The notes under the pieces were generated by a model. The model saw only the letters and a list, made by a program, of their open reading frames with translations. It had not been told where the DNA came from and searched no databases. This document shows, piece by piece, positions 6,920 through 35,520 of a DNA stretch of 43,926 nucleotides. The first letter of the stretch is position 1, and the number at the start of each line of letters is the position of its first letter. The translations under genes were made by a program, and so were the position numbers. Origin of the DNA: Clostridiaceae bacterium (GTDB taxonomy: Bacteria > Bacillota > Clostridia > Peptostreptococcales > T1SED10-28); assembly GCA_003553525.1 (NCBI GenBank), contig PWEO01000055.1:1-43926 (forward strand). The letters run 5' to 3'.

Positions 6920-8296
6920 CTATGATTTTTGCCCATACCAAGTGCCTAACAATGTAACCACAGCAGAGATCAGAATCGGAAGGGTAAAGCTGATTAAAAG
7001 TTGATTTGCCATAAAGAAGGGAATCCCGGAGGCAATCCCTAAAAGCGACGCCAGCACGGCGGTATTTTCCGTGACTTTTTTATTGAACAGTCCGTAGAAC
7101 AAGGGAAAAACCACTCCGGCGCATAGCAAATCCGCCACTAAGAATAAATACAGCACGCTATAGCCTTGGGCAGCAATCAGGGCTGCAGGGATAATAATGA
7201 CCAAGGTCAATACCCTTGCAAAGCCAAGGAGGGATTTACTATCCATGTTTTTCAGGATCCCTCTGGTATTCCCGCTAAAGGTGGCAACCATACCGTTTAA
7301 AAGGGTATCCACCGTACTCATAACCAGGACCAAGGCAAGCATAAAAACCATGATAATGAGTCCTATGGGAAAGATTCCGTAAACCAGGGAAAAAAGAGCA
7401 ACGGAAGGATTCTCAGCATAACCGAGCCCCGTGGAGACGATTCCTAAAACCCCGGTCAGCATCATAATGGGAAGGGCGATGATAATACAAAAGATCAGGG
7501 ATTTTTTAATGGCTTTATCATTTTTCCCGGAATAAATCCGCTGCCAATAGCCCTGGTGAAATAAGTTCGCAACAAACACGGCAATTCCAAGGGTCAGTCC
7601 AAACTCGATCCCTCCGGTATTGCTAAAGCTGAAGAGTTCCGGCGCATTTTCTCTGCTTAGGGATAGAATATTGCCAATCCCTCCGAGATAATAAACGACA
7701 CCGATACCGGTAATCAGCAGAAATACAAGGACAAACACCATTTGTATCATATCCGTAAACATGGAGGCCCTGAGGCCTCCGTAGGCTATGTAAATCATGG
7801 TACCCAGACCAATAAGCAGTGCGGTGAAAAGAAGGGGAATGCCTGCAAGCTCATAGGCCACAAAGGCAATCGCCGTAAGCTCCGCCACCAGGTGAACAAA
7901 CATATAAAATATGGAGAGCAGAAGAATTAATCCATACATCTTCTTTCCGTATCGTTTTCTTGCAAAGTCGTTTAGGGTACTTCCCTGAGGCAAATAGCTT
8001 CGGATTTTCGGACTGAGGATGATAAAGGCAAAATAAAGCCCGCCTAACCCCAGGGCATAGCCGATAACCGTGGTAATCCCGCCGATGGACCCGGCTTCCG
8101 GAGGCGTAAATAGAATAAATACTCCTAAAAAAGATGCCAGGAAAGTGGTGGAAAGCATCTTTGTACCGGCGGTTCCCCGGGCGGTGATAAAATCGTCAAG
8201 GGTATCAAATTTTCCCCGACTATAGATAATTCCCACAGCGGTAAAAGCGATAACGGTAAAAATCAGCAGTGCATAAACGTTGGCAGATGAGATCAT
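6920..8296 (-). CDS. Sodium:solute symporter (SSS family), candidate thiamin-precursor transporter
   Basis: 458 aa, about 12-13 hydrophobic segments from residue 5 to the end, and no soluble domain, as in the SSS/PanF-PutP family. The motifs [22 protein letters not shown]-like region (residues 35-55) and [13 protein letters not shown] near 170-185 are typical of the core LeuT-fold repeats. Its ATG overlaps the thiE stop by 4 bp (ATGA), so it is the last gene of the TPP-riboswitch operon. That context points to uptake of a thiamin precursor, for instance HMP, since ThiW in the same operon is expected to serve the thiazole. Symporters of this family have been predicted before to be thiamin-regulated (named ThiV in comparative work, from memory). 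Pantothenate or proline specificity is not excluded. Confidence 0.8.
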
Positions 8297-8979
8297 GAAT
8301 GATTACCTCCTGAAGTTAAGAAAAATTTTGTAAGATTTTTTGCGGCTCGTTGAATATCCTCTTTGCCAAGAATGGCTGAGACCACGGCGACTCCGTCAAC
8401 ACCGGTATGGATAATAGACTCGAGGTTGTGCTGGGAAATTCCTCCAATACCCACGACGGGAATGGAGACGCTGTCTTTAATCAGTTTCAGCTGATCCAGG
8501 GAAACCCTTCGGGTATTACTTTTCGTTTCCGTTGGAAATAATGCTCCGACACCGATATAATCCGCTCCCTCCGCCTCCGCTTTTTCAGCTTCCTTAAGGG
8601 TCGCGGTGGAAGCACCGAGGATTTTTCCGGGGCCGATCAGTCCCCGGGCCACACTCACCGGCAGGTCCTGTTGTCCCAGATGAACCCCCTCGGCATCCAC
8701 GGCTAAAGCAATGTCAATTCGATCATTAATTATTAAGGGGATTTGGTACTTTTCCGTGAGCTTTTTTACTTCCAGAGCCCTTTGGTAAAATTCCTTAGAA
8801 GAAGCCTCCTTATCCCGAAGCTGAAGGACCGTGACGCCCCCTCTAATTGCCTGTTCCAGGCTCTCGATAAAACTCCGTCCCTTTAAAGCCTTTTGATCGG
8901 ATACCAAATATAGACGATAGGAGATTTTTTCCTTGGAATTACGGCTAGGCATACTGCTTTCAGACTGTTTAAATTTCAT
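8293..8979 (-). CDS. thiE: Thiamin-phosphate synthase
   Basis: 228 aa from the ATG at 8979. ThiE joins HMP-pyrophosphate and hydroxyethylthiazole phosphate to give thiamin phosphate. Visible: YLVSDQ near the N-terminus, TVLQLRDK (pyrophosphate site), [53 protein letters not shown], and VVGIGGIS near the C-terminus, all canonical for the TIM-barrel family. An in-frame ATG further up (9102) would overlap thiM by over 130 bp; the start at 8979 overlaps it by only 11 bp and follows an AAAGGGG site, so I chose it. The protein still has about 22 residues before the usual ThiE start. The stop overlaps the symporter ATG. Confidence 0.93.
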
Positions 8980-9790
8980 AAATTTTTCCCCTTTCCAGAT
9001 AATCCTGTAGGATAAAGCCGCTAAGGGCATCGAAAAGATGGACTTTGAAACTGCCAAGCCCTTCTTTGAATTCTTGTTCAAGGTGCGTCGCTGCAATTTC
9101 ACCGGAGATTCCCATTATACTAAGACCCAGCAGAGCCCCATAAAGGGGAGACTCTCCTGTGGCGCAGCAAAGTCCGATGATGGAAGTACTCATGCAGCCA
9201 GTGCCGGTAATCTTTGAGAGGAATTCATGGCCGTTATGAATTCGATAAGTTTTTTTGCCATCGGAGATCACATCAACTTTTCCGGTTATGGCAATGATGC
9301 ACTGAAACCGCTTCGCAAGGGCCTTTGCCATCTCCTCGCCGCCATTTTCCGTACCTTCAGAAGATTCAACCCCTTTGGTTATCACGGAGGTGCCATGGAC
9401 ATTTAAAATCTCCGACATGTTTCCCCGGATGACGGTAAGATCAATTTTCGCTAAAATCTCTGTAATGAGCTTTCGTCGAAGGTCGGTCGTTCCAAGTCCT
9501 ACGGGATCAAGGATTACGGGAATCCCTAATTCATTGGCTTTTTTTCCGGCTAACAGGAAGGATCTTAGGGTTCGCTGGCTGAGGGTTCCGATGTTTAACA
9601 CCAGGGCCGAGGACAAAGCCACCATTTCCTCCACTTCTTTTTCATCATCGGCCATAACAGGACTGCCCCCCAATGCCAAAATAGTGTTTGCGCAGTCGTT
9701 AGCGGTTACATAATTGGTAATATGGTGGATTAATGGAGACTGTGATTGGATTTCTTCTAAAATCGATTGGAATTCTTCCTGTAAAGTCAA
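8969..9790 (-). CDS. thiM: Hydroxyethylthiazole kinase
   Basis: 273 aa from a TTG start at 9790. It phosphorylates 4-methyl-5-(beta-hydroxyethyl)thiazole for salvage into thiamin. Motifs: [14 protein letters not shown] near the N-terminus, [38 protein letters not shown], and [13 protein letters not shown] near the C-terminus, whose GTGC contains the catalytic cysteine. A TTG at 9835 is also in frame, but the TTG at 9790 is preceded by a perfect ACAGGAGGT at 6-nt spacing and gives the usual N-terminus. It starts 41 bp after the thiD stop and overlaps thiE by 11 bp. Confidence 0.93.
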
Positions 9791-9831
9791 TATAAAACCT
9801 CCTGTTTCAAGCTTGTTGAACGATTCACCGG

Positions 9832-10626
9832 TCAAGAGTCCTGCCGGTAAAGCTCATAAAAATGATGCACCGGGCCGGGCCCCTTACCGATTGCAAAAGA
9901 GTGCTCTATGACGGTGGTAATATAGGCTTTGGCGGATTCAACCGCCGTGTGAACCTCCATGCCGTTGCCAAGATTCGCGGCGATGGCCGAGGACAGGGTG
10001 CATCCGGTGCCGTGGGTGTTTTTCGTCTCAATACGCTTGCTTGTATAATTTTTACAAATCGTACCGTCAAACAGGATATCCACCGCATCTCCATCGAGAT
10101 GACCGCCTTTGACTAAAACGTACTGTGGACCCATTAAATGGATTTTTTTTGCGGCGATTTTCATATCGCAGAGGCTTTGAATCTTCATCCCGGTAATTTC
10201 TTCCGCCTCGGGAAGGTTGGGCGTGACAATGGTTGCCATGGGAAGAAGGTATTCAATCAGCGCCGCCTTTGCATCGGGTTGCAGTAGATCAAAACCGCTT
10301 TTGGAGATCATCACGGGATCCACCACTAAATTATTATGGGGATACTGTTTTAGGGTCTTTGCAATAATTTTGATGGTTTCGGTTTTTGAAACCATACCGA
10401 TTTTAATTCCGTGTACGGGGATGTCTTCAAATACCGCTTCAATTTGCTTTTTGATGATCTCCGGATCAATGTCCTGTACTGCAAATACGCCTTGGGTACT
10501 TTGGGCGGTTACTGCGGTAATGACACTCATTCCGAAGACTTTGTGGGCGGAGAAGGTTTTTAAATCCGCTTGAATTCCCGCCCCTCCCGAGCTGTCGGAC
10601 CCTGCAATGGTTAAAAGATTTTTCAT
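9832..10626 (-). CDS. thiD: Hydroxymethylpyrimidine (phospho)kinase
   Basis: 264 aa, usual length for ThiD. It phosphorylates HMP and HMP-phosphate to HMP-pyrophosphate. The start TIAGSDSSGGAGIQAD (residues 6-21), the strand VVDPVMISKSG (101-111), the VTPNLPEAEEI motif (134-144), LVKGGH (171-176) and the anion hole GTGC (206-209, Cys209) identify it. Its ATG overlaps the thiW stop (ATGA), and the AAGGAGGAGGG just upstream inside thiW is its ribosome binding site. Second gene of the TPP-regulated operon. Confidence 0.95.
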   Translation of the reverse strand: MKNLLTIAGSDSSGGAGIQADLKTFSAHKVFGMSVITAVTAQSTQGVFAVQDIDPEIIKKQIEAVFEDIPVHGIKIGMVSKTETIKIIAKTLKQYPHNNLVVDPVMISKSGFDLLQPDAKAALIEYLLPMATIVTPNLPEAEEITGMKIQSLCDMKIAAKKIHLMGPQYVLVKGGHLDGDAVDILFDGTICKNYTSKRIETKNTHGTGCTLSSAIAANLGNGMEVHTAVESAKAYITTVIEHSFAIGKGPGPVHHFYELYRQDS

Positions 10627-11132
10627 GACTGCCCTCCTCCTTGTCGATGATAAAATTTTATTACCCCGGATTTATCCATCAGTTTAAAGATGATGTAGCC
10701 GATGATGGCTCCTACGATAGAGCTTAAGGCAAAGGGGCCGATAAAGAAAAACAAGGCAACCTCTGAACCCAGCAGGTACCGGGCGATAGGGAAAGCCACC
10801 AAAGCCCCGAGGATTCCCGTGCCGAAAACCTCACCTGCGAGGGCAAAGGGGGCTTTGCCGCTTGCCTTAAAAAATACTCCCGCAAGGAAGGCTCCGAACA
10901 TACTGCCGGGAAAAGCCAGCAAGGAACCGGTACCTAAAATATTTCGAAGCAAAGAGGTCAAAAAGGCTACGACTACGGCGTAATAGGGCCCAAAGAGTAC
11001 TGCGGCTAAAACGTTGATGGCATGCTGTACGGGGAATACTCGGGATACGCCGATGGGAATGGATATTAAATGGGAACTGAGAACCCCTACCGTAATAAGA
11101 AGTGCTGCGGTGGTTAATTTTTTTGTATTCAT
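10623..11132 (-). CDS. thiW: ThiW, ECF-type S component for thiazole uptake
   Basis: 169 aa with five to six hydrophobic segments. The sequence after the first helix, SIPIGVSRVFPVQHAINVLAAV, followed by GPYYAVVVAFLTSLLRN, GTGSLLAFPGSMFGA and FKASGK, is the hallmark of the ThiW family of energy-coupling-factor S components, predicted by gene context to bind hydroxyethylthiazole. It would need the shared EcfA/EcfT module, which is not in this window. First gene after the TPP riboswitch, with an AGAAAGGAAG site before ATG. Together with ThiM it forms a thiazole salvage route. Confidence 0.9.
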   Translation of the reverse strand: MNTKKLTTAALLITVGVLSSHLISIPIGVSRVFPVQHAINVLAAVLFGPYYAVVVAFLTSLLRNILGTGSLLAFPGSMFGAFLAGVFFKASGKAPFALAGEVFGTGILGALVAFPIARYLLGSEVALFFFIGPFALSSIVGAIIGYIIFKLMDKSGVIKFYHRQGGGQS

Positions 11133-11244: not shown

Positions 11245-11277
11245 TGAATACACAGAAGTATTCGTCTAATAAATATA

Positions 11278-11385
11278 GACGCACTTTCCTACGCTGGTAT
11301 GATCCAGATCAGGTAATAAGGATTAAAGACTTTAACGGGTCTTATTCTCAGCTGGCCTATCCAGCGCTCCCAGTGATTCGTATGC
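11278..11385 (-). ncRNA. TPP riboswitch (THI element)
   Basis: Read on the minus strand it has the conserved THI-box blocks in order: ACTGGGAG (11374-11367), CAGCTGAGA (pyrimidine-sensing region, near 11353), and ACCTGATCTGG followed by ATACCAGCGTAGGAAAGTG (near 11313-11283). It precedes a terminator and the thiW-thiD-thiM-thiE-symporter operon. TPP binding should switch the operon off by transcription termination. Confidence 0.97.
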
Positions 11386-22769: not shown

Positions 22770-23420
22770 TTAATCCGCTTCAAAACCGTTATCAAGATGA
22801 TCCCCGTCGCAGAAGGGTTTATTATGGGAACCGCCGCATCGGCAAAGGGTATAATGTTCTTTGCACTCCGGCTGACATCCGCCGTCATCCTTAAGCAGAA
22901 CACCACCGGTAACTTTCAAAGGGCCGTCCTTGGACGTTGTAATGGCAGGGGTGTCTTGTCCCCACTCCTGATAGCGGCGCTCGCCAAAACCGTAGCTGAG
23001 GGCACCGGAAGGACAGTGTTCGATGGTTTTGATGATTTCGGTGACGCTTGCGGCATCGGGTTTAATCCAGGGCTTGCGATCTTTATCAAAAACCGCCGGC
23101 AGCCTATCGACACAACTTCCGTCATGACTGCAGACGCCGCGATTGTCATAAATGATGATATCCTCCCCGGGGTAGGTTTTCACCTTATCGGGAACCCGGT
23201 CCTTTTTCTTTACTTCATTTAGTCCCTCTTCATTGTGGGTGCCGTCACAGTAGGGTTTCATTTTTGATCCTCCGCACCGACAGAGACCGGTAACCGGATG
23301 GGTGTCAAGCTTTTCTCCATCGGACTTTTGTAGCGTTTCAAGATCCGTCACCAGATAGTTGTTGTACTTCGAAACCACGATAGCCGGTGTAGTTTGGTCG
23401 TTCTTTTTCTTGTTGGACAT
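22770..23420 (-). CDS. CDGSH-ferredoxin-CDGSH multidomain iron-sulfur protein
   Basis: 216 aa in three modules. First a CDGSH [2Fe-2S] motif CRCGGSKMKPYCDGTH (residues 47-62, complete 3Cys-1His ligand set). Then a divergent 4Fe-4S domain (Fer4_19 type): IIYDNRGVCSHDGSCVDRLP to EHCPSGALSYG (about 92-150). Then a second CDGSH motif CRCGGSHNKPFCDGDH near 193-208, also complete. CDGSH proteins are redox-active, acid-labile cluster carriers; the fusion to a ferredoxin-like domain suggests electron transfer, partner unknown. ATG follows AAGGAGGAG. Minus strand, opposite in direction to a small CDGSH gene 300 bp away (23717). Confidence 0.9.
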   Translation of the reverse strand: MSNKKKNDQTTPAIVVSKYNNYLVTDLETLQKSDGEKLDTHPVTGLCRCGGSKMKPYCDGTHNEEGLNEVKKKDRVPDKVKTYPGEDIIIYDNRGVCSHDGSCVDRLPAVFDKDRKPWIKPDAASVTEIIKTIEHCPSGALSYGFGERRYQEWGQDTPAITTSKDGPLKVTGGVLLKDDGGCQPECKEHYTLCRCGGSHNKPFCDGDHLDNGFEAD

Positions 23421-27942: not shown

Positions 27943-27979
27943 TAAAAACTGCCTCTTATCCACAGGATAGGAGGCAGTT
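27943..27979 (-). terminator. Terminator of the peroxiredoxin gene
   Basis: AACTGCCTC-CTATCC pairs with GGATAAGAGGCAGTT on the minus strand, followed by T4-5 (27946-27943). Confidence 0.8.
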
Positions 27980-28016: not shown

Positions 28017-28616
28017 CTATCGATTTTTCGGAGTCCATTCCCGCCATACATTTCCGGCTAAGTCCGGTCCGGGCTTTAAGGTCTTCATCCCCTTTGTCCA
28101 ACCGGCAGGGGTAACTTCTCCCGTGGTTCGAACATGCTGAAAGGCTTCAATCTGTCTTATGAGCTCGTCCACATTTCGGCCTACGGGAGGCGTCATAACC
28201 TCCATGGCTTGAACGACGCCGTCGGGATCGATTAAAAAACGTCCTCGAATATTTACCCCGCCGTTTTCGTCATAGACCCCGTATAACTTTCCAATACTGC
28301 CATTGGAATCGGATACCATGGGATAGGGAAATCCTCCCTCTACCATTTTGCTAAGTTCCGTTTCCTGCCAAATTTTATGGGAAAAATGGCTGTCGGTACT
28401 GATGGATAATACATTCACATCCAAACGATCAAAATCTTCTTTACGATCAGCAACTGCTGATAATTCTGTAGGTCAGACAAAGGTAAAGTCTCCGGGATAA
28501 AAGCAGAGAATCGTCCACTTATCCGTAAAATCTGATAAACTCACTTCTGAAAAGTCTCCGTTTTGATAAGCCATTGCTTGAAAATCCGGAGCTTTCCCGC
28601 CAACTTGTGCGATCAT
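28017..28616 (-). CDS. prxU: Selenocysteine-containing peroxiredoxin (PrxU-like)
   Basis: 199 aa if the TGA at 28475-28473 is read as selenocysteine. The sequence is ...FYPGDFTFV-U-PTELSAV..., so Sec48 is exactly the peroxidatic Cys of the AhpC/Prx1-type motif PGDFTFVCPTE; the frame stays open on both sides. A hairpin with a G-U loop follows the UGA. The usual resolving-Cys motif EVCPAGW reads EVTPAGW (Thr169), and no Cys follows the Sec, so this looks like a one-Sec enzyme. Peroxiredoxins reduce H2O2 and organic peroxides. Two starts are possible: ATG 28616 (AAGGAGG, 8-nt spacing, normal family N-terminus) which I chose, or TTG 28721 (AAGGAGGT, 7 nt), adding 35 residues. Standard annotation would split or discard the gene at the TGA. 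Confidence 0.93.
28446..28461 (-). promoter_or_regulatory. Putative bacterial SECIS element
   Basis: On the minus strand, 11 nt after the UGA, ATCAGC-AGTT-GCTGAT forms a perfect 6-bp stem with a loop containing G-U (19-20 nt after the UGA). This position and loop fit the bacterial SECIS bound by SelB. It lies inside the coding sequence. Confidence 0.8.
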
Positions 28617-28721
28617 TTGCATTGCCTCCTTAGGTATTTTGGGTACTTGTTCTTCTTCCCCTTGAGATTTATTCAGAGGTGAAGGATTTGATGAAACACA
28701 GGATATGGATTTCTTTGACAA

Positions 28722-29036
28722 AATATCGACCTCCTTGATTTATATATAGATAAAATTTTTTCTTAATAAATAAATTATTAAGATGATCTATGGTATATAT
28801 ACACTACTGGAAATGGTTTAAACAAAAAAACGGGTAAAAAATTCAGGAAAGAATAGATTCAAACATTGCAATATTAGGATTTAAACATATTCAAGATGAG
28901 GGAATTCTGGGAAAAAAAAAGAAAAGAAGATGCCAAAAATGGGAAATTAATACATAAAAAGAACCCTCCTCTATTCTTAGAGAAGGGTTAAATAAAAGCA
29001 GTTGCAAGAACGAGAACAGCGGTAAGGAATAAATAT
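28722..29036. other. Intergenic region upstream of the peroxiredoxin gene
   Basis: Contains AAGGAGGT for the possible TTG start, an inverted repeat CTTAATAA-N5-TTATTAAG (28762-28782), the palindrome GTATATATAC (28793-28802), and the terminator at 28955-28989. The repeats suit a repressor operator, e.g. PerR, but match its pattern only loosely. No gene seen. Confidence 0.5.
28955..28989 (-). terminator. Terminator of the DUF1292 gene
   Basis: Minus strand AACCCTTCTCTA pairs with TAGAGGAGGGTT (one mismatch), followed by CTTTTT. Confidence 0.8.
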
Positions 29037-33990: not shown

Positions 33991-35520
33991 ATGTCTGTGG
34001 ATCTTATAAAACCTGTAATAGAAGTACAAGGGTGGAATTTAAAAGCCGGTTACCGACAGTTACCGAATAAACTATTCAGTGAAATTTCCCCTAGCCCTGT
34101 AAAGGACCCTGAGATTGTTATCTACAATAAAGCTGTAGAAAATCTCCTGGGGATGAATTCAAGAGATTCGGAAGGAGCGGAGGGGACAGAAATTTTGTCC
34201 GGAAATGAAATACCCAAGGGGGCACAGCCCATAGCCCAGGCCTATGCCGGTCACCAATTCGGACATTTTACGATGTTGGGAGATGGCCGGGCAATCATTC
34301 TGGGAGAGCAAATCACACCGAAGGGTGAGCGATACGATATTCAACTAAAAGGGGCGGGACCCACGCCTTATTCCCGAAGGGGAGACGGCCGGGCAGCTTT
34401 GGGAGCCATGCTTCGAGAGTATATTATCAGCGAAGGGATGTATGGGCTAGGGATCCCAAGTACCCGTTCTCTAGCCGTTGTTTCAACGGGAGAGAGCATT
34501 CTTCGTGAAAAAGAGCTGCCGGGAGCCGTTCTGACAAGGATTGCCGCCAGTCATATTAGAGTCGGAACCTTTGAGTATATCAGCCAATTTGGAAACATCG
34601 AAGAATTAAAGGCTCTGGCGGATTACACGATTGAGCGGCACTTTCCGAACATTATGGAAGACTCCCTGGAAGAGGCCCGTGGTCCTGAGCAAGAGATTCA
34701 TTCTCAAAACCCGAAATACCTGAAATTTTTTGAGGAGGTCATGAACAAACAGGCCTCATTAATTGCAAAATGGCAGCTTGCCGGATTTATCCACGGGGTG
34801 ATGAATACGGATAATATGGCGATTAGCGGCGAGACCATTGACTACGGGCCCTGCGCTTTCATGAATACCTATGATCCTGAAACGGTGTTCAGTTCCATTG
34901 ACCGTGGAAGCCGTTACGCCTATAAAAACCAACCACCCATTGCACAGTGGAATCTAGCAAGGTTTGCAGAAACCCTGCTTCCTTTGATTCATAAGGATCA
35001 GACCCAGGGAGTTAAGCTAATTGAAAAGCATTTACGGCAGTTCCCTGCTCTACACCATAAATATTGGCTGTCGGGTATGGGGAAAAAGCTGGGTATTTTC
35101 CAAGCATCAAAAGAAGACGAAAATCTTATTGATGAGCTTCTTGAAATAATGAAAGAGGAAAGTTTGGATTTTACCAATACGTTTCTGGCATTAACCTACG
35201 GAAATAAGGAAGTACTGGAAATCCGGGAGAGTCAGGGATTTACGGACTGGCGGGGTAAATGGAAAAGACGCCTGGGTGAACAAACCGAATCGGAAGAAGC
35301 GGTAAAACAGCTGATGAAAGCCTCCAATCCCACGGTAATTCCCCGCAATCATCAAGTGGAAAAAGCCCTGGCTGCAGCGGTGGATAACAAGGATTACAGT
35401 GTGATCCGTGAGCTATTAAAAGTGCTTCGAAATCCCTACGATTACAGGGAGGAATATGAGCCTTACCAAAAACCTCCCGGTCCTTTGGATAAACCCTATG
35501 TAACTTATTGCGGCACTTAG
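33991..35520 (+). CDS. selO: Protein adenylyltransferase SelO (YdiU/UPF0061 family)
   Basis: 509 aa pseudokinase-fold enzyme that transfers AMP from ATP to Ser/Thr/Tyr of other proteins, linked to oxidative stress. [51 protein letters not shown] (from about residue 119) and [29 protein letters not shown] (near 268-296, catalytic Asp and metal-binding Asn/Asp) are all the family's signatures. The C-terminus ends VTYCGT before TAG; the Cys sits where some eukaryotic members have Sec, but here it is TGC. ATG follows AGGAGGCG. Probably with the small gene at 33760 in one transcript. Confidence 0.95.

Follow-up and report, generated by a model that had tools for sequence, protein, structure and literature searches.

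A minus-strand gene in the DNA analysed here (43,926 nucleotides, one contig of a Clostridiaceae bacterium; hereafter the window) is, we conclude with high confidence from its sequence, prxU, encoding a selenocysteine (Sec) peroxiredoxin of the Prx1/AhpC type. Comparison with its relatives makes it probable, with some room for doubt, that prxU genes in several phyla carry, where an N-terminal arm meets the peroxiredoxin core, an internal ribosome-binding site with a start codon, which would yield two forms of the selenoenzyme, one with and one without the arm thiol. Few selenoenzymes have received as little study as the Sec peroxiredoxins, and since these lack the usual resolving Cys, the route by which their oxidised selenium is reduced is puzzling. 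If true, an arm Cys combined with two starts offers a direct, testable answer to this question, and single-start constructs or annotations would miss part of the enzyme. Apart from these two features, the gene is an ordinary, good member of a curated family.

The minus-strand frame contains a sole internal stop, TGA at codon 83, and is open to its TAG at 28019-28017.

28017..28721, minus strand: prxU long reading frame, TTG start, TAG stop, 234 aa with Sec83
28473..28475, minus strand: TGA at the peroxidatic position, predicted selenocysteine (Sec83 in the long form, Sec48 in the short one)
27944..27979, minus strand: probable intrinsic terminator (AACTGCCTC...GAGGCAGTTTTT) 3' of prxU, -21.0 kcal/mol folded with its flanks

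The terminator is absent from the output of a terminator scan limited to loops of 3-8, and a scan upstream of prxU for a sigma-70-like promoter found none. The TGA falls within the motif PGDFTFV-U-PTE, and comparison with solved structures aligns it with the peroxidatic Cys of Prx1/AhpC. An earlier note on this DNA had placed the TGA (28475-28473) at exactly that Cys of an AhpC/Prx1 motif, with the frame open on both sides, and this placement holds.

The read-through protein scores 363 bits against the NCBIfam PrxU model (NF040737, cut-off 270), and the match is full-length and includes the N-terminal arm (model positions 4-232 of 233). This score bears out the PrxU-type assignment of the earlier note. 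The protein falls below the AhpC equivalog (198 vs 272) and contains the Pfam domains AhpC-TSA and 1-cysPrx_C. An AlphaFold2 model gives a peroxiredoxin core with pLDDT >90 and disordered residues 1-34, and Foldseek matches the predicted model to Prx1-4 and AhpC in the PDB, with a TM of about 0.9 to the target. The note had also expected automatic annotation to cut the gene at the TGA; a curated model, NF040737, now exists, so current annotation need not do so.

The machinery for Sec insertion was found in the same genome, which is 99% complete. Contig C122 carries a cluster of selA (609 bits), selB (377 bits) and the gene for tRNA-Sec, whose anticodon is UCA, and contig C143 carries selD. The absence of selB or selC had been named in the earlier note as grounds for abandoning the Sec assignment, and the full system it called for is there. 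The selD gene itself (G000 C143:5063-5983) contains one in-frame TGA, and therefore the selenophosphate synthetase of this genome is probably a selenoprotein too. GrdA of glycine reductase likewise has an in-frame TGA in this genome.

Genomes with a PrxU match above the cut-off number 32 of 98 in a survey of the order and 49 of 398 in a sample of the phylum, the window's genome being included in both counts. Across the two surveys there are 80 distinct matches above the cut-off, all of them with the in-frame TGA. PrxU also occurs in Chloroflexi, Zixibacteria, Calditrichota, Planctomycetes, Deltaproteobacteria and Thauera, and the view of these proteins as uncommon and confined to a few anaerobic Clostridia proved too narrow. 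In the literature, 12 Sec peroxiredoxins were counted in 2006 (PMC1794560), they are abundant in Sargasso Sea data (PMC1088965), and those with a TxxU motif are listed as experimentally verified, with the 2001 work on Eubacterium acidaminophilum cited (PMC13188914). The window gene adds one member to an already known enzyme family.

Should the TGA instead be a real stop, the gene would be either a decayed peroxiredoxin or a product of a sequencing error for TGC or TGT. TGA is one base away from the Cys codons, which is what gives this explanation its appeal. We regard it as close to untenable: TGA stands at this codon in every full family member above the cut-off, in several phyla and assemblies, the frame downstream of it is conserved, silent sites beside it covary, and the genome has complete Sec machinery. 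The possibility of a base error, raised in the earlier note, is met by separate assemblies (L022, L023, L077 and L080) of the genus or family to which this genome belongs and by relatives across many phyla, all with TGA at the same codon. Sequencing error and pseudogene were accordingly rejected. Reassignment of UGA was rejected as well, since TGA terminates 6 of the 37 window genes; it is an ordinary stop elsewhere in the window and no general sense codon here.

A SECIS-like hairpin follows the UGA.

28446..28461 (loop 28455-28452), minus strand: SECIS apical hairpin AUCAGC-AGUU-GCUGAU, 17 nt past the UGA (model PMC13188914)

The bacterial SECIS model has a loop of 3-9 nt with G in the first two positions, a stem of 4-16 bp, a distance of 16-37 nt from the UGA and an energy of -7.5 kcal/mol or lower (PMC13188914). 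The window hairpin, at positions 15-30 counted after the U of the UGA, has this geometry, with the loop AGUU, a 6 bp stem and a distance of 17 nt. Its loop has G in the first two positions followed by U, and its first and last loop bases can pair, as the model describes (PMC13188914). The energy is -7.0 kcal/mol for 40 nt and -10.5 for 60 nt, against the model limit of -7.5. It is the family comparison that supports the hairpin: folded as a single sequence, the window stretch does no better than synonymous recodings (not significant). Compared with synonymous recodings, the stretch gives more stable folds in 55 relatives taken together, with a mean z of -1.43 (control stretches, +0.15 to -0.53). 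The third-codon-position pairs 5-8, 4-9 and 6-7 rank 1-3 of the 171 tested for covariation in these 55 sequences, and a second set, made up of 48 further genes, places them at ranks 1, 2 and 4. The covarying pairs occur as A-U, G-C and U-A, and as their sites are silent, constraint on the protein does not account for them. In a sub-branch of short (armless) genes, another hairpin loop, CATA or TATA, follows the UGA.

The gene offers two plausible starts, the TTG at 28721-28719 and an ATG at 28616-28614. AAGGAGG occurs twice, each time 8 nt upstream of one of these codons.

28730..28736, minus strand: long-form Shine-Dalgarno (SD), AAGGAGG, 8 nt upstream of the TTG, -13.8 kcal/mol
28719..28721, minus strand: TTG start of the long form, from the sequence
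28617..28721, minus strand: N-terminal arm, residues 1-35, predicted disordered (pLDDT <50 at residues 1-34)
28698..28700, minus strand: Cys8, the invariant arm Cys, from family comparison
28625..28631, minus strand: internal SD AAGGAGG, within codons K31-E32-A33 and 8 nt upstream of the Met36 ATG
28614..28616, minus strand: internal ATG of Met36, where the 199-aa short form is proposed to begin, from the sequence

At the core Met of 51 relatives, the mean SD energy is -10.9 kcal/mol, compared with -6.1 for synonymous recodings and -4.4 for other Mets. A replicate set of 44 further loci included 23 long genes, with -12.2 against -6.4 for recodings, and 15 armless genes, with -11.8 at the core Met, which is likely the true start in armless genes. 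A start codon stands at the core border in 75 of 76 long genes (ATG in 71, GTG in 3 and TTG in 1), the sole exception being a member with a signal peptide; L108, which has a longer arm and lies outside the 76, likewise has no internal start codon. SD energies of -11 kcal/mol or lower were found at 56 of 76 internal starts and at 1 of 334 other Met codons in the same genes, counts from related sequences that are not independent events. Among in-frame ATGs of other window genes the figure is 1 of 310, the background rate of internal SDs being that of the window only. No earlier report of an internal prxU start, or of internal initiation in peroxiredoxins, was found in the largely open-access literature covered.

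Two ribosome-binding sites and two in-frame start codons, the internal one conserved, are thus present, and we infer, as the simplest reading, a maintained second start. Its main rival is an armless ancestor: only the long form would be made, and the internal SD would either be left over from an ancestral short gene or result incidentally from the amino acids of the linker. Armless genes do have their start at the core Met, behind an SD of the same strength, so the arm could be a later addition, and the tree needs about six long/short changes with an unsettled root state. The SD sits in a K/E-rich linker, and the amino acids contribute to its strength. A relic would be expected to decay, yet the signal is retained across phyla beyond synonymous expectation. 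It is coded in several registers (Lys-Glu, Gly-Gly/Gly-Glu and Arg-Arg), and 13 of about 74 genes have it in another register, which disfavours amino-acid choice alone; GTG or TTG is in place where ATG has been lost. Even an unselected site would be expected to initiate some translation. On this evidence we rate production of the long form only as rather unlikely.

The converse, with only a short form made and the arm region an untranslated leader, appears very improbable. It draws on the upstream start codon, which is TTG in the window and, in 25 of the 75 long genes, TTG or GTG. Against it, the arm stays in frame with an invariant Cys in G/S-C-x-x-P in many phyla, and the SD of the arm start itself averages -12.8. 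The Clostridium sticklandii Sec peroxiredoxin CLOST_2406 is also recorded with an arm, as Sec84 in 240 aa (PMC3091704); compared by Sec position and length, it agrees with the window long form (Sec83 in 234 aa).

The first Sec peroxiredoxin to be described was reportedly the E. acidaminophilum PrxU of Sohling et al. in 2001, with U replacing the peroxidatic Cys; it is said to have 203 aa, Sec47 and Ala for the second Cys. It may belong to a subfamily other than that of the window gene, because related genomes contain another Sec subfamily, marked by GSDFTFVU and by Ala at the second-Cys site. Equating the short form with the E. acidaminophilum protein was considered and dropped: the window short form has Sec48 (47 in most relatives), and the identity was judged unsafe owing to the Ala-type subfamily. 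Members of this second subfamily in related genomes (L135, L136 and L145-L149) have the motif FFYGSDFTFVU-PTELAAVAD and an N-terminus rich in Tyr, carry Ala or a similar residue at the C-terminal resolving position, and score below the PrxU cut-off. A third Sec form (L150-L152, also in related genomes) is AhpC-like, with TGA at the peroxidatic codon, Phe at -10 and the canonical C-terminal Cys. The genes L105-L129 are armless PrxU genes.

Compared with the PrxU of NF040737, the window protein shares the full-length match with arm and the Sec at the peroxidatic site. It differs in its branch: the window U-PTE branch groups with Anaerolineae members (SH-aLRT 93, not starred), apart from the main clostridial U-ATE branch. 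A transfer of the gene is possible. With the typical 2-Cys peroxiredoxins (AhpC, Prx1-4) it shares the fold, the T-x-x-C/U motif and the catalytic Arg, at 40% identity. It differs from them in having Sec for Cys and an extra arm, in lacking the C-terminal resolving Cys, and in a Cys that replaces Phe ten residues ahead of the active site.

28503..28505, minus strand: Cys73, ten residues before Sec, PrxU-typical (Phe in 10/10 Cys peroxiredoxins compared)
28110..28112, minus strand: Thr204 at the C-terminal resolving Cys site (EV-T-PAGW), from alignment

The resolving Cys (VCP) that defines a typical 2-Cys peroxiredoxin is thus replaced by Thr204, and among 76 long genes this site is Thr in 62 and Cys in 12. 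Of 101 members, 98 have Cys at Sec -10, against Phe in all ten Cys peroxiredoxins from related genomes. Every arm-bearing member has one Cys in the arm, mostly in the context G/S-C-x-x-P. In L028, a periplasmic-looking member that retains the arm Cys, a signal peptide precedes the arm, which would place the arm in the mature protein there.

That Cys8 resolves Sec83 is a tentative assignment. It is quite possible, if short of probable, that Cys8 instead links subunits or docks a partner and has no resolving role. The arm is predicted to be disordered and is far from Sec in sequence, and the closest folds found by Foldseek include Prx4, which has Cys51 near its N-terminus; linking subunits is the presumed role of the extra N-terminal Cys in human Prx4. 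The few members that retain the C-terminal Cys have the arm Cys as well, and Cys8 is therefore not just a substitute. Weighing against a linker without resolving function, 62 of 76 long members have Thr for the C-terminal Cys, which would otherwise leave only Cys73 as a resolver.

The sequences show where the UGA lies, which family the protein belongs to, that the Sec machinery is present, that the SECIS covaries and that Cys8 and the internal start signal are conserved; from these we infer selenium insertion, dual translation and roles for Cys8 and Cys73. In the proposed mechanism, SelB and tRNA-Sec would insert Sec at UGA codon 83 under the guidance of the hairpin directly 3' of that codon. 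The attack on the hydroperoxide would come from Sec83 together with Thr80 and the conserved Arg (RGRF), and the resulting selenenic acid would then be reduced by a thiol. Initiation at TTG 28721 would give a long form with a flexible Cys8 arm, and initiation at ATG 28616, with its own Shine-Dalgarno, a short form without it. In the long form, Sec may be resolved by Cys8, or Cys8 may cross-link subunits; the short form would depend on an outside thiol or Cys73.

Other features of the window were recorded in passing. A SelO/YdiU protein adenylyltransferase gene (33991-35520, plus strand) has an ordinary frame with no in-frame TGA. A TPP riboswitch (11269-11381, minus strand) lies ahead of a thiamine cluster at 8293-11132 on the minus strand (ThiW, ThiD, ThiM and ThiE), and the gene at 22770-23420 (minus strand) encodes a divergent 4Fe-4S domain fused to CDGSH iron-sulfur domains.
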